Part shown: positions 42,880 to 60,879 of the stretch, piece by piece
Numbering within the stretch: the first letter of the stretch is position 1
How the letters are laid out: the number at the start of each line of letters is the position of its first letter
NCBI RefSeq assembly: GCF_028715765.1
Contig: NZ_JAQURE010000018.1
Coordinates: forward strand, 1 to 60,879
Reading direction: 5' to 3'
DNA: 60,879 bases
Origin: Rhodoferax sp.
GTDB taxonomy: Bacteria; Pseudomonadota; Gammaproteobacteria; Burkholderiales; Burkholderiaceae_C
Position numbers and translations under genes: made by a program
The notes under the pieces: model-generated
Databases searched by the model: none
Told to the model about the DNA's origin: nothing
The model's input: only the letters and a program-made list of their open reading frames with translations

Positions 42880-42889
42880 GGCTGTTGCC

Positions 42890-46095: not shown

Positions 46096-46111
46096 GCACA
46101 ATTAATTGTGC
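46096..46111. promoter_or_regulatory. Perfect 16-bp palindrome, candidate immunity operator
   Basis: GCACAATTAATTGTGC lies between the divergent Ner-like (starts 46038) and repressor (starts 46129) genes. Its centre is AT-rich and its position matches the operators of phage repressor control regions. Binding by either protein is predicted, not shown. Confidence 0.7.
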
Positions 46112-46128
46112 TTGTACAGGCTTTTATC

Positions 46129-46593: not shown

Positions 46594-46597
46594 ATGC

Positions 46598-46948
46598 GTG
46601 AGGGAGTTAAAAAAATGGCTGGCAAAAATGATCAGCCGAGTGATGCCTGCACAACACAGCAGCGGCAATGGTGCAATTCAAATCGGAAAAATGGGGGGCG
46701 GCGTGACCAATGTGCACCTTACTCAGCACATCTACCGGGCACCCGCGTCACCTGCGGCACACCAGTATGCGGGCAAAGATGTGAGGCTGGTGCTTGCGTT
46801 GCTTGACCAGGTGCCAGATCGGATTGCGGTTCTTGACTTTATGGAGCGGGAGTTCGGCACCAGAATGGTGATCGAGTTGTCTGCACCGCAGGTCTACAGA
46901 GTGCGTCGTTATGCAGAGGTGATTTTGAAGAATGGTGGCCGCACATGA
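46598..46948 (+). CDS. Hypothetical protein sharing a Gly-rich motif with the repressor
   Basis: 116 residues from GTG 46598, five bases after the repressor stop. Basic N-terminus (KKWLAKMISRVM), then HSSGNGAIQIGKMGGGVTNVHLTQHIY, which parallels the repressor C-terminus, then an alpha/beta domain (RLVLALLDQVPDRIAVLDFMEREFGTRMVIELSAPQVYRVRRYAEVIL). Probably co-transcribed with the repressor. Possible partner protein or anti-repressor. No family recognised. Confidence 0.6.
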   Translation: MRELKKWLAKMISRVMPAQHSSGNGAIQIGKMGGGVTNVHLTQHIYRAPASPAAHQYAGKDVRLVLALLDQVPDRIAVLDFMEREFGTRMVIELSAPQVYRVRRYAEVILKNGGRT

Positions 46949-47016
46949 GGCCGGCACTGCGCGCCTGATCTGTCAAGGCCTGCCAAATAACAATATTTTT
47001 TAACAGGGGGAAAACA

Positions 47017-48048
47017 ATGCCAGCCAATGTCATCACGGATGTCATCATCCACAAATTGATCAAGGAACAGCAACAACGGACAGCGACAGTTGAACTTCGC
47101 ACAGCCCCGTTGCCAGTGAACCCTGTGATCCAGCGGTTGATTGATCGAATATCAAAGCAGTACACCGAGAAAGTCGGCAAAGGTTTTGGCAAGTTTGAGG
47201 TTGATGCCAATGAGTATCCTGCTCAGAAACACATTAGAGAACATATTGAAGCGAATGTCATCGATTTTGGCGATCTCTCCAATCGATTGGTGCAACACTT
47301 GCGAACACGTGCTGCAGCGGAACCACTGGCTAAAGGCGGCTATGTTCTGATTGCAAAAATTACCACTGGTGCTAGCAACTATTTATTGGTCGCGGTCGTG
47401 ACTGAAGTCGTTGGTGAAGCCATTACACAGCAGTTAGAAGTGGTTGAAAGTGTGCATGTGGACTTGAGCCAATTGCGTGTGGCTGGACGCGTTGATTTAA
47501 CGACATGGTTGGCCGGTGGTGACCGATACATTAGTTTTCTGAAGGGTAAGGCTGAAGTTTCAGATTACTTCAAATTATTCTTGGGATGCAACGATGTTCT
47601 TGCACCGATGGCAGAATCCAAAAAACTGGTCACAGCATTAGATGACTTTGCTGACCAACAAAATTTGGATACTGCGGCCAAAGATAACCTCTTCAGTCTG
47701 GCGCATGCATATTTGGCTGGTCTTTCAAAAGAAAAGCAACCAGTCGAGTTGGAAGCCTTCAGTAATCACGTTTGGCCACATGCGCCCCAAGACCTGCGCG
47801 ATGTACTCACTGAACCTGAGCGGTCTATATCGGATGGCTTTATTCCTGACCAACGTGCTTTGAAGCATTTGGTTAAATTTGAAGGCAAGTCACAATATTG
47901 GAGGTTGACCTTTGAACGAAAAGCGCTGCGCAACAGAGAAATTGTGTTCGATGCTGCTGCAGGTACGTTGACCCTGAGCAACCTTCCACCTTCTTTGCGT
48001 GAAGAGCTCGAGCGCGATTGCCAACCCGATGATCCTGACGAAGTTTGA
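47017..48048 (+). CDS. NdpA/YejK-family nucleoid-associated protein
   Basis: 343 residues with AGGGGG before the start. N-terminus VIIHKLIKEQQQRTATVELRTAPLPVNPVIQRLIDRISKQYTEKVGKGFGKFEVD matches the 37-kDa nucleoid-associated protein (PF04245), and the later HIREHIEANVIDFGDLSNRLVQHL and FKLFLGCNDVLAPMAESKKLVTALDDFAD are consistent. The host copy binds DNA in the nucleoid. In a prophage it may have been recruited for control or defence. Looks more A/T-rich than neighbouring genes. Overlaps the membrane-protein gene by 20 bases. Confidence 0.82.
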   Translation: MPANVITDVIIHKLIKEQQQRTATVELRTAPLPVNPVIQRLIDRISKQYTEKVGKGFGKFEVDANEYPAQKHIREHIEANVIDFGDLSNRLVQHLRTRAAAEPLAKGGYVLIAKITTGASNYLLVAVVTEVVGEAITQQLEVVESVHVDLSQLRVAGRVDLTTWLAGGDRYISFLKGKAEVSDYFKLFLGCNDVLAPMAESKKLVTALDDFADQQNLDTAAKDNLFSLAHAYLAGLSKEKQPVELEAFSNHVWPHAPQDLRDVLTEPERSISDGFIPDQRALKHLVKFEGKSQYWRLTFERKALRNREIVFDAAAGTLTLSNLPPSLREELERDCQPDDPDEV

Positions 48049-49225
48049 GACGCTGTTGATACCGCTTTACCGCCAGACGACTCTGGCCGGTGGCGGACGC
48101 ACGGGCGTGCTTGAATTGGCAACGCCGGAGCTGGTGAAGGCGTTCAATACGGCTCGTGCAAATGAGCATCGGTATGGTGTTGTGATTCGTCACGATGTGG
48201 ATGTCGACCTTGCCCCAGGTGTTTCAGTAGATGTTGAACTGTGCGATCCAGCAACTGGGCTTGGACTATTGGCTGACACGTTTGATGACGTGCTGCAATT
48301 CCCGCAAGGTAGATCGGTAGTGCCGCGTTTTTTCTGGCTTGAGCATGGACTGGCTCATACCGACGAAGTGTTGAATGCGCACAGTGTGTTTGTCCGATAC
48401 AAACAAGTCATTGAACTGGTGACTCTGCTTGCCAAGGCAGCGGCTTATTTTGACAAAGACGCGGAAGAGTTGGTGTTTTTGAAGTCTGGCAAGGTCAACT
48501 TGCCTGTCAAATACACAGCTGCCGATTTAGATAGCCTGAATGTGCCTGCCCTGCAGACCATGCTGGATCAATTTGATGGGAGTGACAAGCTGCACGAACA
48601 GTTGCTGCCCATTCTGGCCGATGCTGTTATCAAGCATGTTGGCGGGCTAGAGCCTTCGCGTCGCTTTGCATCCCTCCTTGGCCATTTATCTGATGTGGCC
48701 AAAGACTTTGACGATGGGCGGCGTTTGTATGTGGCCAACTTTTCGTATGAAAAAGTCCGCAATCAGCTGGAAGCTGACATGTTGGACGAGTTGGCCCGGA
48801 TCAACAAGACATTTGCGGATGTGCAGGGGCAAATTCTGGGCATTCCTGTGGCAACGGTGCTGGTCGCCACTCAGTTCAAAGTGACTGATGTCTGGGGGCC
48901 GCAAGCCTGGGTCAACACGGCAGTATTGCTTGGGGTTTTGGTTTTTGTCGTGTTGGCCAATTTTGTGATGCGCAATCAGTTGCATACCCTGGACTCCCTT
49001 GAAACCGAGATCAAACGAAAGAAGGGGAAGGTACAGAGTGAATACGCCATGATCAAAGACATGGTGTCTGGTACTTTTCCCAAGTTGGAGTCCAGACTGA
49101 CTTTGCAGCGCAGGGCTTTTTTTGCAGTGCAATTCATTCTTGTGATTGGTTTTATTGCTGCGGCCGCGCTGTATTTGGCTATGACGGAGCCTGTTTGGCT
49201 GTTTTTACGTGGGTGGTTCAACTGA
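48029..49225 (+). CDS. Membrane protein paired with the NdpA-like gene
   Basis: About 398 residues from ATG 48029 (a GTG at 47999 is possible). Residues about 1-280 are soluble, alpha/beta, with no recognised motif. The C-terminal 115 residues hold two transmembrane helices (NTAVLLGVLVFVVLANFV and FFAVQFILVIGFIAAAALYL) separated by a basic segment. The 20-base overlap with the NdpA-like gene implies translational coupling and a joint function. Family unknown; superinfection exclusion or defence is a hypothesis. Confidence 0.65.
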   Translation: MILTKFETLLIPLYRQTTLAGGGRTGVLELATPELVKAFNTARANEHRYGVVIRHDVDVDLAPGVSVDVELCDPATGLGLLADTFDDVLQFPQGRSVVPRFFWLEHGLAHTDEVLNAHSVFVRYKQVIELVTLLAKAAAYFDKDAEELVFLKSGKVNLPVKYTAADLDSLNVPALQTMLDQFDGSDKLHEQLLPILADAVIKHVGGLEPSRRFASLLGHLSDVAKDFDDGRRLYVANFSYEKVRNQLEADMLDELARINKTFADVQGQILGIPVATVLVATQFKVTDVWGPQAWVNTAVLLGVLVFVVLANFVMRNQLHTLDSLETEIKRKKGKVQSEYAMIKDMVSGTFPKLESRLTLQRRAFFAVQFILVIGFIAAAALYLAMTEPVWLFLRGWFN

Positions 49226-49245
49226 GTTTGATCGTCTTACCGAAT

Positions 49246-49416
49246 TCATTTGGCTTGGCTTTTTAACTCACATTTGAATGTTTTATCGCCCACATAAAAC
49301 GCACCAAGCCGCTCACATTCAGCTTCAACTTCGCCGTGCGCTTTGATGTAACCAGCGCCAAAACAGGCGCTTAAGACAAAGGTTCTGAGCAGGAAGCCCA
49401 GCAGTGAATCGTCCAT
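49246..49416 (-). CDS. Very small phage membrane protein
   Basis: 56 residues, MDDSLLGFLLRTFVLSACFGAGYI then KAHGEVEAECERLGAFYVGDKTFKCE. N-terminal hydrophobic helix and a soluble, Cys-containing tail. The stop of the upstream gene (49426) is 9 bases away on the same strand, so they form a pair. Too short for common ORF callers. Confidence 0.62.
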   Translation of the reverse strand: MDDSLLGFLLRTFVLSACFGAGYIKAHGEVEAECERLGAFYVGDKTFKCELKSQAK

Positions 49417-49425
49417 GGGCTGAAG

Positions 49426-49746
49426 TCAGTTGGCCGCTGCAGGTGTTGTCAATCGCTCTTTCAGCGCATAGGCCTCCAGTTCGTATACCTTGCTGGTGGC
49501 TTTGAGCAGGGCATACTTTTGACCCAGCAGTGCGTCAAAATTTTCCGCTGAGGCGCAGGCACTTTCGCCCAGAACGGTGAAGCCGTTTTTTAGTGTCAGG
49601 CAGCACACGGTTAGCGTGGTGCCTGGGAACACATAAAAATCAGCGCCAACGATCACCTCATTGATCCGCTCGTCAGATACAAATGGCGCAACCATGCTGG
49701 CGAGTGGCAAGCTGGTTTCAATGCCTGGGGTGGTGTTTGTGTTCAT
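49426..49746 (-). CDS. Gp49-like phage protein (Phage_gp49_66 type)
   Basis: 106 residues from ATG 49746. ALKNGFTVLGESACASAENFDALLGQKYALLKATSKVYELEAYAL corresponds to the gp49/66 motif (NGFxVxGESACxxPENFD..xG...A) seen in many phages of Proteobacteria; function unknown. It is divergent from the endolysin across about 120 bp and is read toward the membrane-protein gene. Confidence 0.8.
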   Translation of the reverse strand: MNTNTTPGIETSLPLASMVAPFVSDERINEVIVGADFYVFPGTTLTVCCLTLKNGFTVLGESACASAENFDALLGQKYALLKATSKVYELEAYALKERLTTPAAAN

Positions 49747-49865
49747 GGGCGTCTTTCGTGTTGACTTGATTTGTTTCAGGCTTTGATGATCTGACCCTGG
49801 GTGCATGGCCAATAACTAAAGCGCTTTACTCATTGCCCCGCCCTCGCGCGCGCGAAAGTAGGGCC

Positions 49866-50372
49866 ATGTCAAATCAAACTCGCTCACTCATTGCTGTATT
49901 GGCGCTGTCAGCTTCGGGCCTTGTTGGCATTGCCATTGATGAGGGTTACACCTCTAAAGCCGTGCCAGATCCCGTCAAGGGCTTGTCCGTTCCAACCATT
50001 GGATTCGGATCCACCACCGGTGTGCACATGGGCGACACCACCACGCCAGTGGCTGCACTTGTGCGCAAGCTCTCAGATGTCGAAAAATTTGAAGGGGCCA
50101 TGCGTCAGTGCGTGACGGTGCCTTTGCATCAGCATGAGTACGACGCGTACATCAACCTTTCTTACAACATTGGCTCAACTGCTTTCTGTGGCAGCACGCT
50201 GGTGAAAAAGCTCAATGCCAGTGATTACGCTGGTGCTTGCCATGAGATTTTGCGCTGGCGCATGGTTGGTCAAACCGATTGCTCAGCACCAGGCAATGCA
50301 ACCTGTTCTGGTTTGTGGGTGCGCCGCCAAAAAACGCATCGGTTGTGCATGGGTGAAGGTGGGGAGAAATGA
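49866..50372 (+). CDS. SAR-type endolysin (glycoside hydrolase family 24-like lysozyme)
   Basis: 168 residues from ATG 49866. Uncleaved N-terminal anchor RSLIAVLALSASGLVGIAI, followed by the catalytic triad pattern E-x8-D-x5-T: EGYTSKAVPDPVKGLSVPTIGFGST. Cuts peptidoglycan glycan strands at lysis. The anchor and the cysteines at the C-terminus (RQCVTVPLH, STAFCGS) suggest a signal-anchor-release endolysin, which does not need a large holin hole. Overlaps the spanin gene by 4 bases. Confidence 0.9.
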   Translation: MSNQTRSLIAVLALSASGLVGIAIDEGYTSKAVPDPVKGLSVPTIGFGSTTGVHMGDTTTPVAALVRKLSDVEKFEGAMRQCVTVPLHQHEYDAYINLSYNIGSTAFCGSTLVKKLNASDYAGACHEILRWRMVGQTDCSAPGNATCSGLWVRRQKTHRLCMGEGGEK

Positions 50373-50854
50373 GTTCACTTATTCCAAATTGGGGTTTGCT
50401 GGTTGCGTTTTTGGCGGCCTGGGGTGGATGTGGTTTTTGGCTGGGTGGCCAACACAGTGACTTCAGCTGGCAGGCCAAAGAAGCAGCCAAGGACCGTGTT
50501 GCCCGCGAGGTGCTGCTGGCAGCACAGGCGCGAGGCGATGCACTTAGCAGCGGTTTGTTGGCCCAGCAAACCCAAATCAATCAACTGAAACAGGAGTCTT
50601 ACCGTGCCATCTCTCACGCCACCACTGGGCGCACTTGCCTTGACGGCAATGCTTTGCGGGTGCTCAGCAATTCCCCCGGCATCACAGTCTTGCCCACGAC
50701 CTCCGACGGCGTTGCTGCAGAGGGTGATGCCATTAGCACCGATACCGACATCGCGCTTTGGGCAGCTGATGCAGGAGCCGAGTTTGAAACCTGTCGCGCA
50801 CGGCTCAATGCCTTGATTGATTGGCACAACGAAGGGGTGGCCAATGATGATTGA
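50369..50854 (+). CDS. Rz-like inner-membrane spanin
   Basis: 161 residues with an N-terminal membrane helix (WGLLVAFLAAWGGCGFWLG) and a periplasmic coiled coil (FSWQAKEAAKDRVAREVLLAAQARGDALSS). It contains the overlapping Rz1 gene in another frame. Together they fuse inner and outer membranes at the end of lysis. Confidence 0.82.
   Translation: MSSLIPNWGLLVAFLAAWGGCGFWLGGQHSDFSWQAKEAAKDRVAREVLLAAQARGDALSSGLLAQQTQINQLKQESYRAISHATTGRTCLDGNALRVLSNSPGITVLPTTSDGVAAEGDAISTDTDIALWAADAGAEFETCRARLNALIDWHNEGVANDD
50604..50816 (+). CDS. Rz1-like outer-membrane spanin lipoprotein (nested in Rz)
   Basis: 70 residues wholly inside Rz in a +1 frame relative to it: MPSLTPPLGALALTAMLCGCSAIPPASQSCPRPPTALL. 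The lipobox LCGC places the mature Cys after a short signal peptide, and the Pro-rich body is typical of Rz1. A classic nested spanin pair. Confidence 0.82.
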   Translation: MPSLTPPLGALALTAMLCGCSAIPPASQSCPRPPTALLQRVMPLAPIPTSRFGQLMQEPSLKPVAHGSMP

Positions 50855-51236
50855 GTTGACTGTGACGAATGCGATTGTTTTGCTGGCGTCTGTTTTTGGC
50901 GGTGGCTGGACGCTGATCAAGGTGATTGCTGTGCAGTTTGAAAGAGGCATCAAGCGCGATTTGCAAGAGCAATTTAAGGGGCAGGAGACGGCCAGTAAAG
51001 CGCACTACACCCAGCTCAACATGCGACTAGACGCGCTTGACGCGGCCACCAAAGCTGACACAGGGCAGTGGCAACGGGTAGAGCGCGAACTGCTGACACT
51101 CAAGGCAGACATGCCGCTGAACTATGTGCGCCGTGAGGATTACATCCGTGGCCAAAGTGTTCTGGAGGCCAAGATTGATGGCCTTGGCACCAAAGTAGAA
51201 AACGTGCTTTTAAGAGCACTCAACTCCACCAACTAA
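50844..51236 (+). CDS. Phage membrane protein, single span with coiled coil
   Basis: 130 residues (ATG 50844 or 50847). N-terminal hydrophobic helix (TVTNAIVLLASVFGGGWTLIKVIAV), then a helical segment with YTQLNMRLDALDAATKADTG and VRREDYIRGQSVLEAKIDGL. Similar DUF2730-type proteins sit beside spanin genes in Mu-like phages; a holin role is possible but not shown. Overlaps the Rz stop. Confidence 0.65.
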   Translation: MMIELTVTNAIVLLASVFGGGWTLIKVIAVQFERGIKRDLQEQFKGQETASKAHYTQLNMRLDALDAATKADTGQWQRVERELLTLKADMPLNYVRREDYIRGQSVLEAKIDGLGTKVENVLLRALNSTN

Positions 51237-51245
51237 AAGGGATTT

Positions 51246-51557
51246 ATGCAACAAATTGACCATGCCCGTTTGCGCCGCGAAGCCTTGCGCTGGCTTATTT
51301 TGCTCACGCTCAACAACGCACGCCCGATCGGTGCTTTTGAGGGTTTGGTTTTGTCAGTGGCTCAAAGTGAATACCCAGATGCCACTGCACTTGAGTTGCG
51401 CCGCGAGATGGATTACCTGCATGACCGTGAGCTTGTGAAACTCGACAAACAGCCCAGTGGCAAATGGCATGCAGAGTTGAGCCGATTTGGGGTGGATGTG
51501 GCCGAGTACACGATTGCTTGTGAGCCAGGCATTGCCCGACCGGCCAAGTACTGGTAA
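51246..51557 (+). CDS. Phage protein with winged-helix-like fold (gp26-like position)
   Basis: 103 residues: ALRWLILLTLNNARPIGAFEGLVLSVAQSEYPDATALELRREMDYLHDRELVKLDKQPSGKWHAELSRFGVDVAEY, a wHTH-like domain. Located directly before the small terminase, the place of Mu gp26-like proteins. Function unknown; perhaps DNA binding during packaging. Confidence 0.72.
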   Translation: MQQIDHARLRREALRWLILLTLNNARPIGAFEGLVLSVAQSEYPDATALELRREMDYLHDRELVKLDKQPSGKWHAELSRFGVDVAEYTIACEPGIARPAKYW

Positions 51558-51561
51558 CGCC

Positions 51562-52134
51562 ATGGGTCGCAAATCCACCATTTCTCGACTGCCGGCTGAT
51601 GTGAAGTCGTACATCGAGGGCAAGCTGGCTGAGGGCCGCCTGACGCTTGATGAACTGATTGCGGATCTGCATGCGCGCTTTTCGTCTGCATTGGATGCAG
51701 GTGAGCTGCCCAGCCGGGCAGCGGTGCACCGGTATGGTCAGAAACTTGATCGCCGACTGTCAGCCATCAGGGCCAGCACGGAGGCAGCCAAGATCATCCA
51801 GGCGCAAGCGGGTGATGACAAGGATGCCCGCAGCGAGGCGCTAACGGCGCTGATTCAGACCGAGTTGTTTGAAGCGATCCTGAATCTTCAGGAGGCCGAT
51901 GACCCCGACATGGACCCGTCCGACCGGGTTGGCATGTTGTCTTCTGCCGCCAAAAACATTGCCACATTGACCAGGTCAAGCGTGAATTTGAAACAGTTTC
52001 AGGCCAAGGTGGAAGAAGACACCCGACGCAAGGTGCTTGAAGAGCAACGTGCCAAGCTGGATGCCATGGGCACCAAGGGTGGGGTCACAGAAGACACCAA
52101 AATGGCCATCCGTGAAGCGCTTGGGATTGTCTGA
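51562..52134 (+). CDS. Terminase small subunit (DUF3486, Mu gp27-like)
   Basis: 190 residues from ATG 51562. MGRKSTISRLPADVKSYIEGKLAEGRLTLDELIADLHARF plus ELPSRAAVHRYGQKLDRRLSAIRAS is the DUF3486 pattern; a coiled-coil region follows. It recognises DNA for packaging by the large terminase, whose gene begins on its last base. Confidence 0.92.
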   Translation: MGRKSTISRLPADVKSYIEGKLAEGRLTLDELIADLHARFSSALDAGELPSRAAVHRYGQKLDRRLSAIRASTEAAKIIQAQAGDDKDARSEALTALIQTELFEAILNLQEADDPDMDPSDRVGMLSSAAKNIATLTRSSVNLKQFQAKVEEDTRRKVLEEQRAKLDAMGTKGGVTEDTKMAIREALGIV

Positions 52135-53540
52135 TGGCAACCATCAAAGGCCGTGCCAAGGTTATACCCGCTGACCGGGATGCCATCTTTTTGCCGTTCC
52201 AGGCGGCCTGGATCAAGGATCAGTCACGCATCAAGCTGATGGAGAAGGCGCGCCAGATTGGCATCAGCTGGTCTACCGCCTATGGCACCGCTGAGCGCGC
52301 TGCTGCCTTTGGGGCCCGGTTTGACGAATGGGTGAGCAGCCGCGATGACATTCAGGCGCGCCTCTTCATTGAGGACTGCAAGCTGTGGGCTGGCATCATG
52401 AACCTGGCCGCCAAGGATTTGGGCGAGGTGGTGATTGATGCCAAGGACAAGCTGACGGCCTATGTGCTGCAGTTTGCCAGTGGCAGGCGCATTCACAGCA
52501 TGAGCAGCAACCCCGATGCCCAGGCGGGCAAACGTGGCAGCCGCGTGCTGGATGAATTTGCACTGCATGCGGATCAGCGCAAGCTGTGGGCCATTGCTTA
52601 CCCGGGTATCACCTGGGGTGGCGCCATGGAGGTGATCAGCACGCACCGGGGTTCACACAGTTTTTTCAATGGCCTGATTCGTGAGGCCCGCGAAAAGGGC
52701 AACCCCAAGCGCATCAGCTTGCACCGCGTGACGTTGCAAGATGCGCTTGACCAGGGGTTTTTGTACAAGCTCCAGCAGGCACTGCCCGGCGATGCAGAGC
52801 AGCAGGACATGGATGAGGCGGCGTATTTTGACTACGTGCGCAACGGTGCGGCAGACGCGGAATCGTTTGACCAAGAGTACATGTGCATTGCGGCCGATGA
52901 TGATGCCAAGTTTTTGGAATATGGCTTGATCACCGCTTGTGAGTACTCAGACGGTGCCGACTGGCAACGCGGCCTGGAAGGGCCGTTCACCGGGCGCTTG
53001 TTCTGCGGTGTGGACATTGGCCGCAAGAAGGATTTGACGGTGCTGTGGGTTCTGGAGCAGCTGGGTGATGTGTTTTACACCAGGCATGTGGAGACGATGC
53101 AAAACATGCGCAAAAGCGCCCAGGAGGCCATTTTGTACCCGTGGTTTGAGCTTTGCGAGCGGGTGTGCCTGGACTATTCAGGCCTGGGCATTGGCTGGGG
53201 TGATGACGCACAGGACAAGTTTGGCGAGCAACGGGTGGAGTGTGTGACCTTTACCGGCCCGGTAAAGGAGGCGCTGGCTTACCCGGTGCGCGGCGCCATG
53301 GAGGACCGTGCGGTGCGTATTCCTGACGAACCCATCATTCGGGCCGACTTGCGCAAGGTGCAGAAGGTAGTCACCGCAGCTGGAAACATTCGCTTTGTGG
53401 CCGAAAGCACACCTGATGGCCACGCTGACCGCTTTTGGGCGTTGGCTCTGGCTCTGCATGCCGGGTCTGACCCACAAGCCCCTATCGAATTCACAAGCAG
53501 CGGCCAACCCCGTGGTGCTGACGCACAAGGATTTATGTAA
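52134..53540 (+). CDS. Terminase large subunit (Mu gp28-like)
   Basis: 468 residues. The ATPase Walker A is of the terminase type (KARQIGISW at about residues 39-47), followed by DEFALHADQRKLWA and EVISTHRGSHSFFN, while the nuclease domain begins at FCGVDIGRKKDLTVLWVLEQ with the metal-binding Asp and CLDYSGLGIGWGD later. Mu-like terminases package from inside the host DNA after transposition. Overlaps the portal by one base. Confidence 0.93.
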   Translation: MATIKGRAKVIPADRDAIFLPFQAAWIKDQSRIKLMEKARQIGISWSTAYGTAERAAAFGARFDEWVSSRDDIQARLFIEDCKLWAGIMNLAAKDLGEVVIDAKDKLTAYVLQFASGRRIHSMSSNPDAQAGKRGSRVLDEFALHADQRKLWAIAYPGITWGGAMEVISTHRGSHSFFNGLIREAREKGNPKRISLHRVTLQDALDQGFLYKLQQALPGDAEQQDMDEAAYFDYVRNGAADAESFDQEYMCIAADDDAKFLEYGLITACEYSDGADWQRGLEGPFTGRLFCGVDIGRKKDLTVLWVLEQLGDVFYTRHVETMQNMRKSAQEAILYPWFELCERVCLDYSGLGIGWGDDAQDKFGEQRVECVTFTGPVKEALAYPVRGAMEDRAVRIPDEPIIRADLRKVQKVVTAAGNIRFVAESTPDGHADRFWALALALHAGSDPQAPIEFTSSGQPRGADAQGFM

Positions 53541-55123
53541 TGGCCACCAAAAAAGCACCCAATACCCAAAATAGCCAGGCCGCAGTGGGCCGCCCCGAGC
53601 TTGACACCGAGGTGGCCAACCGGCTGCACGATCCGTTCGAGACCAATTACATGGGGGTGCTGCGCACCAATGACCCGCTGCTGCTGGAGCGTGGTAACGG
53701 CGCGCGTGCGTTTGAGTTGTACCGTGATTTGAAGCGGGACGGCAAGGTGTTCAGCGGGTTGCAAAAACGCAAACTGGCAATGATTGGCAAGCCGTGGCAG
53801 GTGGAGCCGATTGGTCAGGGGGACGCCGCTGACAAAGATGTCGAGATCGTCACGGCAATGCTCAAGAGCATCAATTTCGACACCTTGTGTGACCGGTTGA
53901 TGGATGCCTTGTTGGTCGGGTTTGTGCCTGCTGAGATTGTTTGGACTTACCTTGACAGCCGGTACACGCCAGCTCGGGTCATCAAGCGCGCACAACACCG
54001 GTTTGTCTACGTGCAGACCGATGCCAATGCCCCGCCAGCGCTGCATTTGTTAACCAAGTCAAACATGCTGACTGGCGAGGTGGTGCCTGATAAGAAGTTC
54101 ATGGTGCATGTGGTGAACCCAGAGGATGACAACCCGTATGGCACTGGCTTGGGCCTGCAGCTGTATTGGCCGGTGTTTTTCAAGCGCAAAGGCATTTTGT
54201 CCTGGAACAAGCTCAATGACCGCTTTGGCTCACCCACGCCCTGGGGAAAATACCCCAAAGGTGCTGGCCCCAAGGAAAAAGGCACGCTGTTTGATGCTCT
54301 CAAGGCGATGAGCAATGACGGCGTCATCATGACGCCCGAGGGCATGGGGCTGGAGCTGCTGGAAAGCAAGCTGACCGGCTCCATCACCACGCAGCAAAGC
54401 CTGTGCGAGTACATGGATGACTGGATCATGGAGGTGATTTTGGGCCAGTCACCGCGTGGCAAAGGCGGCGGTGCCTTGGCGGCCGCCAGTAATGAGCGCG
54501 AAGACGTGCGGGTGGAGTTGTCGCAGGCGGATTCTGATTTGCTGAGCGAGACCATCAACAGCACGCTGCTGAAGTGGTTTTGTGAGTTCAACGGGTTGAC
54601 ACCCTGCCGGGTGTACCGAGTCATCAAGAAAGATGAGGATCTGAAGGCGGCCAGCGAGACCGCCAAGAACGTGGCCAGCATGGGTTTCAAGATGTCGCTT
54701 GAGGGTGTGAGGGCCAAATATGGCGAGCACTGGCAAGAAGCACCGGCACCACCACCTGCACCAACACCATTACCAGCAGGGACGGACTTTGGCAACCGCA
54801 TCGAGCGAGTAGTTGCGCGGAGAAATTCCGACACTGCTGCGCCAGCGAGTTTTGCGGAATCGTTGGCGGCCATGTCGTTTGCTGATCAGTCTGCCTTTGA
54901 CCTTGTGATGAAGGCCTTGCCAGATGATTGGCTCCAGGAGCAAATGCAGTCCATGTTGGTCCCTGTTCGCGAGCTGCTGGTGAAGGCCAATCAAAACCCA
55001 CAGGAGCTGCTTGGGCAGCTGGCTGAAAAGTTCCCTCAGGCCGATGAGGCCTCTCTTCAAAACCATCTGTCACGGCTGATTTTTGCGGCCCAGGTTTGGG
55101 GGCGACTCAATGGACAAGACTGA
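53540..55123 (+). CDS. Portal protein (DUF935, Mu gp29-like)
   Basis: 527 residues. RAFELYRDLKRDGKVFSGLQKRKLAMIGKPWQVEP and WNKLNDRFGSPTPWGKYPKGAG with QSLCEYMDDWIMEVILGQS belong to the DUF935 portals. It forms the dodecameric ring at the head vertex and receives DNA from the terminase. The C-terminal helical tail (PQADEASLQNHLSRLIFAAQVWGRL) overlaps the MuF gene start by 14 bases. Confidence 0.93.
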   Translation: MATKKAPNTQNSQAAVGRPELDTEVANRLHDPFETNYMGVLRTNDPLLLERGNGARAFELYRDLKRDGKVFSGLQKRKLAMIGKPWQVEPIGQGDAADKDVEIVTAMLKSINFDTLCDRLMDALLVGFVPAEIVWTYLDSRYTPARVIKRAQHRFVYVQTDANAPPALHLLTKSNMLTGEVVPDKKFMVHVVNPEDDNPYGTGLGLQLYWPVFFKRKGILSWNKLNDRFGSPTPWGKYPKGAGPKEKGTLFDALKAMSNDGVIMTPEGMGLELLESKLTGSITTQQSLCEYMDDWIMEVILGQSPRGKGGGALAAASNEREDVRVELSQADSDLLSETINSTLLKWFCEFNGLTPCRVYRVIKKDEDLKAASETAKNVASMGFKMSLEGVRAKYGEHWQEAPAPPPAPTPLPAGTDFGNRIERVVARRNSDTAAPASFAESLAAMSFADQSAFDLVMKALPDDWLQEQMQSMLVPVRELLVKANQNPQELLGQLAEKFPQADEASLQNHLSRLIFAAQVWGRLNGQD

Positions 55124-56432
55124 TCCAGCTGTGCTGATGGCGTTGTTTGGCATGCCGCCAAAAGAGGCTATGGCGTACCTGGAGGGTAAAGGGCTTCGGA
55201 TCACGTTCAATTGGGCTGAAATGCTGGATGAGGCCCATGCCCGAGCCTTTACCGTGGCAAAGGCGATGCGCCTGGATGTGCTGCGTGATATTCGCACCGG
55301 GGTTCTGGATGCGCTTGCCACCGGCAAGACGCTTCGCCAGTTTGAAGCTGAGCTGACGCCGCTGCTGCAGGCGAAGGGGTGGTGGGGCAAGCAAATTGTG
55401 GTGGACAGTCAAGGCCAGGCGCAGCAGGTGCAGTTGGGCAGCCCGCACCGCTTGAAAACGATTTACCAGACGAATTTGCAGAGCGCGTTCATGGCTGGGC
55501 GCATGCAGGCGCAAATGGCTGCGACATCCTGCGTTTATTTGATGTATGTCGCTGTGATGGATGGCCGGACCCGTGCCAGCCACGCTGCTTTGGATGGAAA
55601 GATTTGGCGCAAGGATGATGCGGTGTGGGCCAGCATTTACCCGCCGAACGGTCATAACTGCCGCTGTCGCACACGTGGGCTTACCGAGGGGCAACTCAAA
55701 CGCGAGGGGTTGTCGCTCTCAGATCCGCCCGACATCGTGACTCGCGAGGTGACCGCAGGTAAAAACGTTGCGACTGGCGAGCTGTTTCGTACCCATCAGA
55801 CGGGTGTGACCGTGAAGGATGCTTTGGGTAAGTCGATCACCATGTGGGTTGACCCGGGTTTTGACTCAAGCCCACTGGCGGGGCACCCCATGGACAAGTT
55901 GCTGGCGAAAAAGGCGGTGGACGCGTTGGGCAATGCGGCTGGATTTGACCTGGTGCGCCAGGCCGTGTTGTCGGATACGCGGATGAGAGCCTGGAGGGCG
56001 TTCATTGAAAACACTGAGCGTTCAGGCATTCGCAATAAGTTGGGTGAAAACGCCATTCAAGGCCAGAGCATGACGGTGGGCATTTTGTCGCCGCAGACAG
56101 TGCTTGCCTTGGCTGAGCAAGATCTGAATTTTTCGCCGGTGCTGTCTGTGGAAGACCGCTTGATTGTGGGCAAGAAGGCCAAGCGGCACGGGAATGACGG
56201 TGACGCGCTTCAGCCAGGTGATTGGTTGGCGGCGCCAGAGCTTTTGTCGGGCGCATATGCCTATTTGGACAAAAAGACGGGGCAGCTTGTTTTGGTTTAT
56301 GCGCACGGGACCTCTGAGCAGTCTGTTCAGTTGGTGTTTGAGAAAACCGGTGCGGCTGCCAGCGCCTATTTGACTGACAACGCGTTGGTGATGCAAAAGG
56401 TGCAATCAGGGCGCTGGGAGATGGTGAAGTGA
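55110..56432 (+). CDS. MuF-type phage head morphogenesis protein with extra C-terminal domain
   Basis: 440 residues from ATG 55110. The N-terminal 200 residues form the MuF/SPP1 gp7 domain with the terminal zinc-like motif HAALDGKIW...PPNGHNCRCRTRGL. The C-terminal 190 residues (RLIVGKKAKRHGNDGDALQPGDWLAAPELLSGAYAYLDKKTGQLVLVYAHGTSEQSVQLVFEKTG) go beyond what Mu F needs and resemble MuF-linked nuclease/toxin-like extensions. Probably ejected into the cell with DNA. Toxin identity is a guess. Confidence 0.85.
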   Translation: MDKTDPAVLMALFGMPPKEAMAYLEGKGLRITFNWAEMLDEAHARAFTVAKAMRLDVLRDIRTGVLDALATGKTLRQFEAELTPLLQAKGWWGKQIVVDSQGQAQQVQLGSPHRLKTIYQTNLQSAFMAGRMQAQMAATSCVYLMYVAVMDGRTRASHAALDGKIWRKDDAVWASIYPPNGHNCRCRTRGLTEGQLKREGLSLSDPPDIVTREVTAGKNVATGELFRTHQTGVTVKDALGKSITMWVDPGFDSSPLAGHPMDKLLAKKAVDALGNAAGFDLVRQAVLSDTRMRAWRAFIENTERSGIRNKLGENAIQGQSMTVGILSPQTVLALAEQDLNFSPVLSVEDRLIVGKKAKRHGNDGDALQPGDWLAAPELLSGAYAYLDKKTGQLVLVYAHGTSEQSVQLVFEKTGAAASAYLTDNALVMQKVQSGRWEMVK

Positions 56433-56438
56433 GGGCGC

Positions 56439-56496
56439 TGGCGGTGCACGGGTTCGAACCGGCCATCAATGCCCACCCCAGGTGGGATCACCGCCA
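56439..56496 (+). other. Potentially structured RNA segment between MuF and virion morphogenesis genes
   Basis: An 8-bp stem (TGGCGGTG 56439-56446 / CACCGCCA 56489-56496) encloses a palindrome GGTTCGAACC (56451-56460) and a hairpin CCCACC-CCA-GGTGGG (56472-56486), a three-way-junction shape. The palindrome resembles a tRNA T-arm, but no tRNA frame fits. It occupies nearly all of the 82-base gap between the two genes. Confidence 0.5.
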
Positions 56497-56514
56497 ACGT
56501 CTTAAGGATACCCC

Positions 56515-56997
56515 ATGATCACGATTGAAGTCAAAGACCAGGAAGCATCGGACATGCTGCGCCAACTGTCTGCCCGCGTCAAAGACATGCGCCCAGCAAT
56601 GGCTGAGGTGGCCAATGCGCTGGCCAGCGAAAGTGAGCGCCAGTTCAAGACCCAAAGCGGGCCGCTTGGCAAGTGGCCTGATTTGAGTGATGAGACAACA
56701 AAAGTGTTCCGAACCCGAAAGGGTAGCTGGCCTGGTCAAATTTTGCAGGTGTCAGCCGGTGGCTTGGCCGCCTCAGTGCAAACATCTTTTGGTGCCGACT
56801 TCGCAAGCGTGGGTAGCAATAAGCCATACGCCGCAATGCACATGTTTGGCGGTGTCACCAGTCCCAAAAGCATGATTCCAGGAAAGAGGATTGCTGCGCG
56901 GCCATTTCTTCCGTTCAATCCTCAGACTCAGGCGTTGTCAGTGCCAGCAAGGGAGGCGATCGTTGAGATTCTGAACAACTACCTCGCGCATCGTTGA
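56515..56997 (+). CDS. Virion morphogenesis protein (Mu gpG-like)
   Basis: 160 residues. EASDMLRQLSARVKDMRPAMAEVANALASESERQFKTQSGPLGKWPDLS and ASVGSNKPYAAMHMFGGVTSPKSMIPGKRIAARPFLPFN are the family hallmarks. It is an assembly factor of the Mu head-tail region, usually next to MuF. AAGGA precedes the start. Confidence 0.92.
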   Translation: MITIEVKDQEASDMLRQLSARVKDMRPAMAEVANALASESERQFKTQSGPLGKWPDLSDETTKVFRTRKGSWPGQILQVSAGGLAASVQTSFGADFASVGSNKPYAAMHMFGGVTSPKSMIPGKRIAARPFLPFNPQTQALSVPAREAIVEILNNYLAHR

Positions 56998-57036
56998 AGT
57001 TATCCCTCATTTTTGTTCACAACCTGAAAGGACATC

Positions 57037-57282
57037 ATGGAAGTCGTCATCACTCCCGGGCCAATTCGGCCCTTACGCCCACAAGCGGTGGCCGTGGTTG
57101 GATCTGCGAAAGATTCAATCGGTGAAGTGTTTAACCCCGAGGACTGCGCCATTGCGTATGGTCGAGATTCAAATGGGAATATCACCACCGAAACAGCGAC
57201 GGACGGGGCGAACAGCTGGGTGAAAACTTACACCTGGGTTGCTGGCGTTTTGACTGCAGAAAGCAAGTGGGTGCGGCAATGA
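57037..57282 (+). CDS. Small hypothetical protein preceding the DGR target
   Basis: 81 residues, beta-rich: VVGSAKDSIGEVFNPEDCAIAYGRDSNGNITTETATDGANSWVKTYTWVAGVLTAESKWV. Its stop overlaps the start of the DGR target gene by 4 bases (ATGA), so they are translated together. Possibly a structural partner of the variable protein. No family recognised. Confidence 0.7.
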   Translation: MEVVITPGPIRPLRPQAVAVVGSAKDSIGEVFNPEDCAIAYGRDSNGNITTETATDGANSWVKTYTWVAGVLTAESKWVRQ

Positions 57283-58634
57283 GTGCGCTCGGTGCGTTTC
57301 AAAAGCTGTTTGACCTGGTCGGTGGTGTGCGTGCGAAACGCAGTATGGCCGGTGGGGTTGTTTTATCGTCTGGTGGCATGGAGATACCCGTCGGCGCTAA
57401 CCTCAACGCCATCGGCAACCCTGGTCAACAAGGCTTCGGGGTAGGCATCTGCCCCGCGCTACCCACGGGCTTCAGCGCCATGTACGGCACCAGCGACCCC
57501 GCCAGCGACAACTACGGCAATTACCAGTACACGGACGGCTCTGTCATGGTGTGGGTGCCAGCCTTTTTTTACAAGATTGGCACTGGGTCCAATGGCTTGG
57601 GTGTCAACCGGGTAGACATCAGGGCGTACGCTGCGTTTGCCAATGTGGCTGCAGCCAACGCTGAAGGGTTTGCGCTGCATCGGGCCTTTTACAACGCAGG
57701 CGCGATTCAGCTGGGGGTGTTTGTTGACAAATACCAGTGCAGCAACAATTCCGGCGTGGCCAGTTCGGTCAAAAATGGCAACCCATTGAGCAGCAGCAGT
57801 GCACACAACCCATTCGGTGGTCTAACTGGTGCGCCTGCCAACAACTATGGTGGGGCCATTGCAGCGGCAAAAACACGCGGGATCACATTCTTCTGTGCGA
57901 GTCTTTTCGTTCACAAAATGCTGGCTTTATTGTCACTTGCGCACGCGCAAGCCAGCACGGGCACTGCCTTTTGCGCCTGGTTTGATGCGGCAGGTGTCAC
58001 CAACTTTCCCAAGGGAAACAACAATAACGCACTGCGCGACGCCAATGACGCGACCCTGCTCTACGTGTCAGACGGCTACTCGAATTGCGCCAAAACAGGG
58101 TCATCCAACGCGCTGGCCAGGACAACCCACAACGGGCAAGCCTGCGGCGTGGCGGATCTCAACGGCAATATGTGGGAGATCGCTCCTGGGTTGACCAGTG
58201 ACGGTGCTAACTATTACCTGCTGAAAATTGCCGCAAACATCACAACAGCCACGGGCGGCAATGCATTGGCCACGGACTTGTGGGGCGCAACCGGGTTGGT
58301 GGCGCTGTATGACAACGTGGGCACCACTTATGAATCAATGACCGCCAGCAACACCAACAAAGTTTTTGGCGCGGCCACACAAGTACTCAGCCCAGCCATC
58401 AGTGGCACAGCTTGGGCCATGACAGGTGCAGGCATACCGCTGGTCACTGGTGTGAGCGGCTCCAATGCGTTTGGTACAGATTATTTTTATGACGCTCGCC
58501 CCAATGAGCTCTGTGTGATTTCGGGTGCCGCTTGGGTCCACGGCGGCACTGCCGGGGTCTGGGCCCTGCTTCTGGACCACGTTCGGGGTAACTCGAACCA
58601 CCACGTGGGCTTTCGCTCTGCCTCGTATCTCTGA
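57279..58634 (+). CDS. DGR variable (target) protein with C-type-lectin/formylglycine-like fold
   Basis: 451 residues. The N-terminal 330 residues have no clear named domain but include MVWVPAFFYKIG, FVDKYQCSNN and DLNGNMWEIAPG, the landmarks of formylglycine-generating-enzyme/sulfatase-modifying-factor-like proteins, the scaffold used by most DGR targets. The last 40 residues are the variable repeat: LCVISGAAWVHGGTAGVWALLLDHVRGNSNHHVGFRSASYL. Varied positions include AW, V-H, T, L, D-H, H-H and A. Likely a receptor-binding or virion surface protein. Confidence 0.9.
   Translation: MSALGAFQKLFDLVGGVRAKRSMAGGVVLSSGGMEIPVGANLNAIGNPGQQGFGVGICPALPTGFSAMYGTSDPASDNYGNYQYTDGSVMVWVPAFFYKIGTGSNGLGVNRVDIRAYAAFANVAAANAEGFALHRAFYNAGAIQLGVFVDKYQCSNNSGVASSVKNGNPLSSSSAHNPFGGLTGAPANNYGGAIAAAKTRGITFFCASLFVHKMLALLSLAHAQASTGTAFCAWFDAAGVTNFPKGNNNNALRDANDATLLYVSDGYSNCAKTGSSNALARTTHNGQACGVADLNGNMWEIAPGLTSDGANYYLLKIAANITTATGGNALATDLWGATGLVALYDNVGTTYESMTASNTNKVFGAATQVLSPAISGTAWAMTGAGIPLVTGVSGSNAFGTDYFYDARPNELCVISGAAWVHGGTAGVWALLLDHVRGNSNHHVGFRSASYL
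58509..58624 (+). other. DGR variable repeat (VR)
   Basis: 116 bp at the 3' end of the target gene. It aligns base for base, without gaps, to the template repeat 592 bp downstream; 12 positions differ, 11 of them adenine in the template. One change (58599, C for template G) is not at an adenine. A weak stem ACCCT...AGGGT lies just after the gene (58636-58657). Confidence 0.93.
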
Positions 58635-58670
58635 CACCCTGAGTGATAACGAAGGGTTCAAAAAAATTTT

Positions 58671-59096
58671 ATGGCTCAAAAAACGCAATCAATACACGCA
58701 GAAGCAGGCTTGCATCGCAAGCTGGTGCTTTTTGCAGTGCAGCTGGAGATGTATCTGGCCCATTTCCCAAATTGCCACAAATACACGCTGACGCAGGGGA
58801 TTCGCCAGGCTTACCTGGATGTTTACAACCTGGTGACCGAGTGCCAAAAACGTTACAACAAGAAAACGACATTGACGCAACTCGATGTGCGTCATGAACA
58901 GTTGCGCATGATGCTGAACCTGGCCCATGAATTGGGTTTGTTTGGCTACAGCACTGGGCGAAAAGATGCTGAGTCACCAGGCGCACATCGCCACTTGGTG
59001 ATCACGCGAATGGTTGATGAGTTGGGTCGCATGATTGGCGGCTGGCTCAACATGGAAATTCATGGGCGAGAGCCCTTGAATGCGGTGGAGGCTTGA
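58671..59096 (+). CDS. avd: DGR accessory protein (Avd-like four-helix bundle)
   Basis: 141 residues, all helical: EAGLHRKLVLFAVQLEMYLAHFPNCHKYTLTQGIRQAYLDVYNLVTECQKRYNKKTTLTQLDVRHEQLRMMLNLAHELGLF. This is the bAvd pattern (pentameric four-helix bundle with basic surface), required with the reverse transcriptase for mutagenic copying of the template. It lies between target and template, the normal DGR order. Confidence 0.92.
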   Translation: MAQKTQSIHAEAGLHRKLVLFAVQLEMYLAHFPNCHKYTLTQGIRQAYLDVYNLVTECQKRYNKKTTLTQLDVRHEQLRMMLNLAHELGLFGYSTGRKDAESPGAHRHLVITRMVDELGRMIGGWLNMEIHGREPLNAVEA

Positions 59097-59100
59097 CATG

Positions 59101-59216
59101 CTCTGTGTGATTTCGGGTGCCAATTGGGACAACGGCGGCAATGCCGGGGTCTGGGCCCTGAATCTGAACAACGTTCGGGGTAACTCGAACGACAACGTGG
59201 GCTTTCGCTCTGACTC
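59101..59216 (+). other. DGR template repeat (TR)
   Basis: 116 bp, 22 adenines in the first 113 positions; 11 are changed in the VR. Asn codons (AAT/AAC) dominate where the target varies, which is the usual TR codon set giving broad amino acid choice without stop codons. About 150 bp of non-coding spacer follow before the reverse transcriptase start, where the RNA primer/spacer region is expected. The TR is readable as protein, but only because it copies the target. Confidence 0.93.
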
Positions 59217-59366
59217 TGTGCCAAATACGCCTTATGCAGCGTGTGCTGACTGGCAGAGAGGGAGCCTTTGCCGTGCCTTGCGGCGAAATGTTTTGCTCAA
59301 GCCCCCTTTGGTAGCGCCCATGGCCCGTGTTGGTCAGCGCGTGAAAATTGGTGCAGGAGTCCTTGC

Positions 59367-60386
59367 ATGAAGCGCGCAGGCCATCTTTATGACAGCATTT
59401 GCACCCCAGATGCGCTGTTGGCGGCGTATCTGGCGGCCAGTCGACACAAGCGCAGCCATCGGGCCTGCTTTGAGTTTTCGCGCAATCTCGGGGCTAACCT
59501 GTCCGAGCTGCAACGGGAGCTGCAAAGCCAAACTTACCAGCCACGCCCGTGCAGTCAGTTCATGGTCACCGATGGCCGCAAGCCGCGCCTGATTGAGGCA
59601 CCTGCATTTCGAGATCTGGTGGTGCAGCATGCGGTTTACGCGGTCACCTCACCGCTGTTTGAGGCTCGTTACATCAGCACCAACTTTGCGTGCCGGGTGG
59701 GCCTTGGCACACACAAAGCAGCGGACTGGCTGCAGGCCGCCATGCGCCGGGCACCACGCACCGACTGGGTGCTGCATGTCGATGTGCGTAAATTTTTTTA
59801 CAGCATCGACCGCGACATTTTGATGTTGCTGCTGGAGCGCTTTGTCAAGTGCGCCCCCACCCTGGATCTGATGGCTGCGTTCGCAAAGCGGCCGGATGCT
59901 ACTGGTGTGCCTATTGGTAATTTGATGAGCCAGACGTTTGCAAACCTTTATCTCAACAGCCTGGATCACTACTGCAAGCGCACACTCAAAGTGGCGGACT
60001 ACGCCCGCTACATGGATGACAGCATCATGCTGGCACCCAGCCGAGCGATTGGATTGGCTTGGCTCGCAAGCATTCGTCAACACCTGGCGATGATTGGGCT
60101 GGAGATCAGCCACTACAGCCTACACCCCATCAAGCGCGGTGCGAATTTTGTAGGTTTTCGCACCTGGGCTACAGCGCGGTTTGTGCGCCCACATGTGATC
60201 AGTGCACTAAGAGCAGATGCACGTCACGGTCGGCTTGAATCCGTCATTTCCCGGCTTGGCCACGCCAAGAGAACCTGTTCATTGAAACCGCTCACTCAAT
60301 TCCTGAAGGAAAAACACCATGCCATCTTTGTACGCCTACCGAAAAGTTATCGACACAGTCACAACGCACACACTGCGCCTGCCTGA
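59367..60386 (+). CDS. DGR reverse transcriptase
   Basis: 339 residues from ATG 59367. Catalytic YMDD at residues 215-218, D139 in LHVDVRKFFYSID (motif A), and VPIGNLMSQTFANLYLN (183-199) with the IGxxxSQ signature that distinguishes DGR enzymes from group II intron and retron types. The thumb region (HPIKRGANFVGFRTW) also fits. It copies the TR RNA into adenine-mutated cDNA that replaces the VR. The last 68 bp overlap the next gene. Confidence 0.95.
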   Translation: MKRAGHLYDSICTPDALLAAYLAASRHKRSHRACFEFSRNLGANLSELQRELQSQTYQPRPCSQFMVTDGRKPRLIEAPAFRDLVVQHAVYAVTSPLFEARYISTNFACRVGLGTHKAADWLQAAMRRAPRTDWVLHVDVRKFFYSIDRDILMLLLERFVKCAPTLDLMAAFAKRPDATGVPIGNLMSQTFANLYLNSLDHYCKRTLKVADYARYMDDSIMLAPSRAIGLAWLASIRQHLAMIGLEISHYSLHPIKRGANFVGFRTWATARFVRPHVISALRADARHGRLESVISRLGHAKRTCSLKPLTQFLKEKHHAIFVRLPKSYRHSHNAHTAPA

Positions 60387-60810
60387 AGCCCAGCAGGGTG
60401 AGCAAACCGGACAGGAGTTGGCTACGCTTGCCGACGGCCGCACGGTGATCGTTATTTTTGATGGGGTCGCACTGCCAGACGATCAGTCTGTGGCCATCTC
60501 TGCCAGCATTGAGCTGCTGCCAAATCCATTACCCGACTTGCTGCGGGAACAGATCAAGGTCGCCAGCCCGCACGTGGCTTTGATTGATGCCCGCATGATT
60601 CAGATGATCAGGGCCAGCTACACCCAGGACGATGAGAATTACTTTTCTCGCATAGGTGTAGGCGCGGCCATGGGCATGTACACGCCCAAGGCTGATGAAA
60701 TTCAGGCCATGACCGTATTTGGTGAGTTTGTTGAGTCGATTCGGCAATGGGGGTGTTGCCGCCGACCGAAAACTGAGCCACTTTTAGAGGTTATGCCGCC
60801 CCAAAACTGA
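60319..60810 (+). CDS. Phage hypothetical protein with 3' end replaced by an IS
   Basis: 163 residues as read, start behind AAGGAAAA. Up to about residue 145 it is a normal small phage protein (LATLADGRTVIVIFDGVALPDDQSVAISASIELLP, then SYTQDDENYFSRIGVGAAMGMYTPKADEIQAMTVFGEFVESIRQW). The final residues (GCCRRPKTEPLLEVMPPQN) come from the IS terminus starting near 60754, so the natural end is disrupted. Function unknown. Confidence 0.65.
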   Translation: MPSLYAYRKVIDTVTTHTLRLPEAQQGEQTGQELATLADGRTVIVIFDGVALPDDQSVAISASIELLPNPLPDLLREQIKVASPHVALIDARMIQMIRASYTQDDENYFSRIGVGAAMGMYTPKADEIQAMTVFGEFVESIRQWGCCRRPKTEPLLEVMPPQN

Positions 60811-60879
60811 GCCAGGTGTTTTACTAGCGCTGCCTACTTTTTAGGCAGGAGCAAACAAGGTGATCACCATGGAATTTTT
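60754..60879 (+). mobile_element. Left end of an IS21-family element (runs off the window)
   Basis: Begins TGTTGCC and contains two 20-bp repeats, GCCGACCGAAAACTGAGCCA (60761-60780) and GCCGCCCCAAAACTGAGCCA (60795-60814), 18/20 identical, the multiple transposase-binding sites typical of IS21. A start codon at 60869 behind AAGGTG probably opens istA (only MEF visible). Confidence 0.65.

Follow-up and report, generated by a model that had tools for sequence, protein, structure and literature searches.

An Avd-type diversity-generating retroelement, very probably complete, behind the gpG-like gene of a Mu-like prophage in Rhodoferax sp.

Introduction

Does the reverse transcriptase (RT) gene near the right end of a Rhodoferax sp. 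contig belong to a complete diversity-generating retroelement (DGR), and if so, which protein does it rewrite and what surrounds it in the phage that carries it? We analysed contig NZ_JAQURE010000018.1 of assembly GCF_028715765.1 (forward strand, positions 1 to 60,879; this one whole contig is called the window below), for which an initial annotation had reported a DGR in a transposable prophage at 57279-60386. It is very probable that the window holds a complete Avd-type DGR in a Mu-like prophage, rewriting the end of a predicted C-type-lectin-fold receptor-binding protein. The evidence in sequence consists of a template repeat (TR), a variable repeat (VR), Avd, RT, a hairpin motif after the VR, adenine-specific differences between the repeats, signs of constraint on the RT and Avd genes, and VRs that vary among relatives; transcription, cDNA synthesis, hairpin-aided integration at the VR, presence of the target in the virion and receptor binding are steps that we infer. 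A DGR in a transposable phage is a known kind of arrangement (hankyphage, according to the part of PMC12135933 consulted; BalMu-1; Bise), and the new features here are its position behind gpG, the adhesin slot, a companion gene and the open template frame.

In the mechanism that we propose, RT, acting with Avd, would misread adenines as it copies the TR. The altered copy would likely take the place of the corresponding 117 bp at the end of the target gene, its integration at the VR being helped by the hairpin. The mutated target would then serve as a receptor-binding protein in the virion. The cassette would occupy an exchangeable adhesin slot behind gpG and an 81-residue gene. The TR and the spacer after it form an open frame whose two ends are in stop-start contact with Avd and RT, and RT translation is probably coupled to ribosome passage over the template.

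Adenine-specific differences between the repeats

The VR (58508-58624, plus strand, at the end of the 451-codon target gene) and the TR (59100-59216, plus strand, between the Avd and RT genes) are direct copies at a spacing of 592 bp and are 90% identical. The 12 differences given in the initial annotation were recovered, over a repeat of 117 bp rather than the 116 bp stated there, and its count of 11 at template adenines was likewise borne out: with 22 A among the 117 TR bases, such a bias has a hypergeometric p of 8.8e-9. From TR to VR these eleven changes are 7 A>C, 2 A>G and 2 A>T, and ten residues differ between the two translations, in agreement with the eight or more that the initial annotation had counted. 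The sole mismatch away from an adenine pairs G in the TR (59191) with C in the VR (58599). Across 45 loci with a 117-nt TR, the window included, this column holds 29 A, 12 C and 4 G, and among those at an RT identity of at least 65% the window alone lacks A; because the close relatives all have A there, the window TR probably underwent A>G at 59191 after the VR was last written.

A search of the genome for further VR copies had also been proposed. DNA and RT searches of the 3.4-Mb genome (112 contigs) returned a single VR/TR pair and a single RT match, and neither the DNA search of the genome nor a repeat search of the window found VR copies beyond this pair, although copies that had diverged too far could escape both. 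No Rfam match was found in 56500-60879.

Diversification in related phages

Besides RT relatives (75 loci from viral sequences and 7 from genomes), the comparison set contained 33 loci for the transposase and 3 for the 81-residue gene. VR/TR statistics were drawn from the 138 loci with a detectable pair (the window and RT relatives), which amount to 107 distinct pairs, the other loci being cut before the VR or pairless; the pair scan was scored blind to base identity. Some contigs are represented by more than one overlapping locus (L014 and L214 are an instance), and distinct pairs or representatives are counted where stated. Over the 107 distinct pairs, 1503 of 2720 TR adenines differ from the VR, as against 65 of 9589 other bases, and 67 pairs have no non-adenine difference at all. 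The repeats of loci L061 and L074, to which we return below, are possibly altered, older or wrongly paired.

Close phages allow the same question to be asked of VRs that share a template. In 11 groups, chosen for having more than one VR and a shared or near-shared TR and with L008/L071 included, 176 VR columns vary where the TR has an adenine and 21 vary at other positions. Seven loci from seven different metagenomes form one such group: a single TR is accompanied by six versions of the VR, which vary at 22 of 23 adenine columns and at one other column, while the 300 nt upstream show no difference among the six loci in which that stretch is present. Judged by these comparisons, the VR is naturally diversified at template adenines in kin phages. 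The initial annotation had named equal divergence at non-adenines among strains as the observation that would speak against a DGR; in relatives, the differences concentrate at TR adenines.

Avd and reverse transcriptase

The genes for both proteins are uncut. Avd (58671-59096, plus strand, 141 residues) matches Pfam bAvd above the Pfam cut-off (2.3e-13) and PHROG 3206, 'Avd protein of DGR' (5.8e-16), whereas the NCBIfam Avd match (E 1.5e-16, 60.6 bits) stays below its 80-bit cut-off. The RT (59367-60386, plus strand, 339 residues, with its ATG at 59367) matches RVT_1 (1.3e-13) and PHROG 1423 (7.7e-89), and its closest solved structure by sequence is PDB chain 8ub7_A (E 1.9e-50, the next reaching 2.3e-16), which we take to be the enzyme of Bordetella phage BPP-1. 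As the initial annotation had noted, it carries DGR-type IGxxxSQ (here IGNLMSQ) and YMDD motifs; I-G, S-Q and Y-M-D-D occupy columns common to 8 of 8 aligned RTs, BPP-1 among them. The ratio of nonsynonymous to synonymous polymorphism (pN/pS) against four relatives is 0.25-0.33 for RT and 0.12-0.22 for Avd, and by this measure both genes are under constraint. The claim that target, Avd, template and RT are all present and intact thus agrees with uncut frames and matched families.

The target protein

The target gene (57279-58634, plus strand; ATG at 57279, stop codon at 58632-58634) encodes 451 residues with the VR at the C-terminal end. It has no Pfam match, and its PHROG matches are families of unknown function plus one tail family (1.5e-8). 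Residues 40-451 were modelled from 87 sequences with a mean predicted local distance difference test score (pLDDT) of 94.7; a model from 24 sequences (mean pLDDT 54.6) was not used. Against solved folds (Foldseek), the core matches the variable protein TaqVP of Thermus aquaticus (5VF4) best (E 3.1e-17, template-modelling (TM) score 0.57-0.62), followed by five Mtd variants (E 1.1e-4 to 7.5e-4, TM 0.28-0.36), and TaqVP is also the only profile match (E 5e-5), although identity over the alignment is 17-18% and the host is different. The target is accordingly predicted from its model to have a C-type-lectin-type fold. Targets 75-83% identical to it carry quite different N-terminal parts.

The initial annotation placed the DGR at the opposite end of the phage from the tail fibre genes. 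The map agrees with this. In L098/L099, L108 and L289, however, adhesin-type genes are found on the arm that holds the DGR here, and the target is for that reason likely a second receptor-binding protein. A target after the tape measure or the tail gene t6278 on the tail arm was seen in 12 of 82 RT relatives, many others being cut or too distant; unlike in those 12, the window target sits on the arm opposite to the tail arm.

A hairpin motif after the variable repeat

In BPP-1, a hairpin with a GRNA loop directly after the VR is needed for efficient retrohoming (PMC3240598, as far as the portion consulted describes it). A comparable element, ACCCT-GA-GT-GATA-AC-GA-AGGGT with the GRNA-type loop GATA, follows the window VR at 58636-58657 (plus strand); its stem is interrupted by GA/GA and so differs from the uninterrupted 7-10 bp GC-rich stem given in that portion of PMC3240598. 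The motif GA-G[C/T]-GRNA-[A/G]C-GA occurs after the VR in 48 of 88 distinct loci and after the TR in none of the 88, and 27 loci have a perfect GRNA hairpin of at least 5 bp in its place. Its inner pairs are GT/AC in 3 loci and GC/GC in 45, a paired change. By a general hairpin score, 42 of 88 loci have a hairpin after the VR and 7 after the TR, against 1.9% of shuffles. Because the motif recurs after the VR and its inner pair changes on both sides together, the GA/GA-broken stem looks like a subtype of this DGR clade.

An open frame through the template repeat

An open frame, recognised from sequence and conservation, runs through the TR and the spacer (59098-59370, plus strand). Its ATG lies one base past the Avd stop, with GGAGG six bases before the ATG; it shares the frame of the VR, crosses the 150-base spacer between TR and RT (59217-59366, plus strand) and stays open to a TGA inside the RT start (ATGA). 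We surveyed this frame in 110 loci at an RT identity of at least 44%, reduced to 40 representatives (<80% identity). The Avd-to-RT intervals of these representatives range from 239 to 372 nt and have 26 different lengths, of which multiples of three account for 32 of the 40 cases. The TR frame is open in 32 of 40, compared with 4 and 11 in the other two phases and with 3.95% of shuffles, and in 30 of 40 the open frame has an ATG at the Avd stop. Under a stricter call, in which start codons were chosen in the RT frame, the genes are coupled in 16 of 16 representatives at an RT identity of at least 65%, in 20 of 26 at 45-64% (one more being fused) and in 5 of 21 below; of these last 21, at RT identity <45%, 3 are fused and 13 closed, BPP-1 among the closed. 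Random drift starting from the window spacer would leave 8.6 of 29 spacers open, and 28 of 29 are.

Spacer substitutions fall on codon positions 1, 2 and 3 in 222, 261 and 258 cases (21 pairs of 7 loci), with no bias, and a useful peptide encoded by this frame is unsupported for that reason. We read the open frame as the product of selection for ribosome passage rather than for a peptide, and RT translation is probably coupled to ribosomes that cross the template. Taken further, and tentatively, since we give the whole proposal somewhat less than an even chance, the TR would be template and message at once: its frame would stay open though its codons drift, ribosomes crossing it would drive RT synthesis, and a given transcript would be either translated or used as template, which would amount to a mutation-rate switch in a cassette whose slot alternates between two DGR types and non-DGR adhesins. 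Several points count against reading the frame as coupling. The frame counts are inflated by relatedness, the drift model ignores RNA constraint, the BPP-1 frame is closed, and in some DGRs the TR overlaps the annotated RT gene (PMC3521204, in the part consulted).

The open frame could instead be a by-product, the TR reading through as the VR must and conserved RNA blocks lacking stops, with nothing being translated, and we put this at only just short of an even chance. The lack of codon-position bias in the spacer is what such a by-product would give, the spacer is probably a structured RNA while the drift null carried no structure constraint, and the 13 closed frames among the 21 distant representatives, BPP-1 included, agree with it. 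It accounts poorly for intervals of 26 lengths that are yet multiples of three in 32 of 40 cases, for the ATG at the Avd stop and the stop inside the RT start, and for the gap between the open spacers left by drift and those seen. As for precedent for the coupling that we favour, no description of a translated template or of template-RT coupling was found in those parts of the open-licence literature that were searched; in work in E. coli, the authors held the absence of an evident ribosome binding site in front of brt responsible and supplied one (PMC12875486, from the portion consulted). A clade in which the template frame leads into the RT start would make the coupling of template use to RT dose directly testable.

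A companion gene after the reverse transcriptase

The RT end is overlapped by a further gene (60319-60810, plus strand), which is cut near 60753, the remainder of its frame coming from insertion sequence (IS)-like sequence that replaces about its last ten codons, judged by the length of relatives. Among relatives with at least 450 nt past the RT, this companion follows in 17 of 17 at an RT identity of at least 65%, in 20 of 31 at 45-65% and in 4 of 29 below. It gave no significant match to PHROG, Pfam, NCBIfam, PDB sequences or the phage collection, and no Pfam domain was present in its homologues among the 120 matches listed of 693 found by search. We examined its relatives in 80 of 153 loci found. 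An RT precedes the companion in 72 of the 80, the aligned parts overlapping in 69; the remaining 8 have a DGR-type target upstream, seven of them within 250 bp, and L237 has an Avd match in between. Because these 8 loci without an RT upstream have a DGR-type target there, the companion likely serves the target or adhesin, and a role as RT cofactor is less likely. In L228, L232, L233, L234, L269, L276 and L279, the DGR-type target is followed closely by the companion with no RT between; such loci may encode variable proteins that no longer have their RT or are served from elsewhere.

A different trailing gene (PHROG 6034) ends the cassette of L289, and it is 43% identical over 75 residues to the BPP-1 sequence at bbp4 (L290 1542-1760), which suggests that bbp4 is a cassette companion. 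Trailing genes of both kinds, the companion and the PHROG 6034 type, would serve the adhesin, and the companion gene is a candidate partner of hypervariable adhesins.

The slot behind the 81-residue gene

The left border of the cassette is a gene for 81 residues (57037-57282, plus strand) that has no family match in Pfam, PHROG or NCBIfam and whose stop overlaps the target start (ATGA). Relatives were found in L098, L099 and L289 and, less alike, in L005, L016, L108, L233 and L234. L289, a 4.6-kb metagenome contig and the only viral contig found with this gpG, is 80% identical to the window over 56148-57289 (gpF, gpG and the 81-residue gene), and the similarity stops in the first target codons, where the 81-residue gene's stop overlaps the target start. 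Past this join, L289 encodes a target of Mtd type (Pfam mtd_2nd, 1.8e-27) as well as Avd and an RT, the last 34% identical to the window's, and it has a TR/VR pair of its own in which A accounts for 13 of 14 mismatches. Its identities to BPP-1 are 58% for Mtd, 65% for Avd and 61% for RT, which place it in the BPP-1 (Mtd/bRT) type at 58-65% identity; the window falls outside that type.

Other adhesin genes stand behind relatives of the same border gene. L108 (3905-5527) encodes, between portal and F and behind an 81-residue homologue, a protein of Mtd type (mtd_2nd, 5.8e-23) that is followed by a PHROG 6034 gene; that contig yielded neither an RT match nor a TR/VR pair. In L098 and L099, two views whose gene content is nearly identical, the same 81-residue gene and a similar 35-residue start precede a protein with a GDSL-type match (3e-7, which falls slightly short of the Pfam cut-off). 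In L108 and L098/L099, the module lies either between the portal and F genes or at the end of a contig. From these comparisons, adhesin modules appear to be exchanged as wholes, some including a DGR and others not, the exchange taking place where the adhesin gene begins, and the slot suggests a route by which a lineage could swap its entire diversification machine, beyond adhesin variants. Locus L016 (1-4308) shows a third cassette position for the same DGR clade, between a lysis-gene fragment and the repressor and on the strand opposite to that neighbouring repressor.

Comparison with known systems

With the BPP-1 DGR (mtd-avd-TR-brt), the window shares the order target-Avd-TR-RT, the adenine-biased VR/TR pair, a GRNA-type loop after the VR (in BPP-1 that of a hairpin, from PMC3240598, in the part consulted) and a C-type-lectin-type target by fold match. 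It differs in that its RT is 37% identical, its target has no significant sequence match and its Avd match covers 13 residues only, and in having the GA/GA-broken stem, the companion gene and a TR frame open to the RT start, which in BPP-1 is closed. Hankyphage (Bacteroides), BalMu-1 (Bacillus) and Bise (Pseudomonas) resemble it as transposable phages with target, Avd and RT; Avd is annotated as such in BalMu-1 and is a four-helix-bundle gene in Bise, and the hankyphage DGR is active, as the consulted part of PMC12135933 reports. The RTs of Bise and BalMu-1 are 44% and 38% identical to the window's, and their DGRs lie after the tail genes on the same strand, whereas the window has its DGR behind gpG, as the last element of the non-tail arm in a divergently organised genome. 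In V. cholerae HE-09 and Vibrio phage kappa, a DGR unit replaces an adhesin region with the join within the target gene, according to the part of PMC3521204 consulted. The window resembles Vibrio phage kappa in having a DGR unit in a phage adhesin region and a join in the target gene; in kappa, by that same partial account, a DGR-free stretch was replaced, whereas here related phages have two DGR types following the same genes, which adds a case beyond the described transfer of DGRs via a fused target gene.

Weighing the evidence for an intact element

Some observations weigh against a complete and working element in an exchangeable slot. The window's own target is listed as identical in three contigs in a protein search, with no variation of its own seen, and diversification is shown by sequence in related phages only. 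L061 and L074 break the adenine rule, having non-adenine differences as many as or more than those at adenines, and 15 of the 21 varying non-adenine columns in the close-phage groups stem from L045/L046, which were judged misaligned. The window hairpin folded alone is weak (z -1.45) and has an interrupted stem, and in 13 of 88 loci the VR is followed by neither form of hairpin. The slot exchange is drawn from one contig, L289, with partial support from L108, and the window stops before the right phage end, the IS-like sequence cutting the companion gene.

Part of this would fit a silenced or decaying DGR, in which intact-looking parts make up an element that no longer works and the target has become a fixed adhesin: the companion gene is interrupted, the TR has seemingly changed at one adenine since the last copying, and the three listed targets are identical. 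Since no frame of RT, Avd or target is interrupted and the first two genes are constrained, we regard such silencing as unlikely, though a recent loss would look alike. A different RT system beside a chance repeat, namely a retron, an antiviral RT or a group II intron, could draw on a PADLOC RT match (3.1e-41) and a group II RT match (4.3e-30, 105 bits, below the cut-off of 300); the stronger PHROG RT match with an adjoining Avd, the adenine-biased repeat, the IGxxxSQ motif and the wide lead of 8ub7 over the next structure rule out an antiviral or intron RT and leave this alternative a negligible probability. With regard to the slot, L289 might be a chimeric assembly rather than a real exchange of DGR types, being a single 4.6-kb metagenome contig with no other viral contig sharing its gpG. 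Its join falls exactly at the 81-residue gene's stop and the target start, and L108 independently pairs an 81-residue homologue with an Mtd-type protein, and we consider a chimera distinctly improbable.

The Mu-like prophage and its surroundings

The prophage has two arms. The leftward arm (23067-46038, minus strand; PHROG matches) holds regulators, transposase A (41101-43269, minus strand) and B (39869-41104, minus strand), a Mor-type activator, protease, major head protein, tape measure and tail genes, the tail arm occupying about 23067-31917 on the minus strand with weak tail-fibre matches at 23067-25355. The rightward arm (46069-56997, plus strand; Pfam and PHROG) holds a repressor, a nucleoid-associated protein, lysis genes, Gp27, terminase, Portal_Mu, Mu F and the gpG-like virion morphogenesis gene (56515-56997, plus strand). 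With a Mu-type transposase, the transposition protein, Gp27, Portal_Mu, Mu F and virion-morphogenesis genes all present, this is a divergently organised Mu-like (transposable) phage, and the placement of the DGR in a transposable prophage by the initial annotation is upheld by these genes together with the DGR parts, the adenine bias and the target fold. Terminase relatives were examined in 80 of 459 loci; 31 of those 80 show transposase A in the same stretch and 30 of the 31 are divergent, which rules out a misassembly as the source of the divergent map.

The contig ends in the end of a multi-copy sequence (60754-60879), which appears to be IS-like and recurs from about 60754 on three other contigs of the genome. 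Beside the repressor, 47017-49225 holds a nucleoid-associated-protein-type gene and a PHROG 5023 gene; neither has a PADLOC match, and weak relatives of both (24-31% identity) occur in L155 and L173. Near the left side of the prophage, a 74-nt direct repeat (20924-20997 and 22379-22452) is 99% identical, and tandem 30-nt units occupy 23755-23916 in the last gene of the tail arm, which has a tail-fibre-type match.

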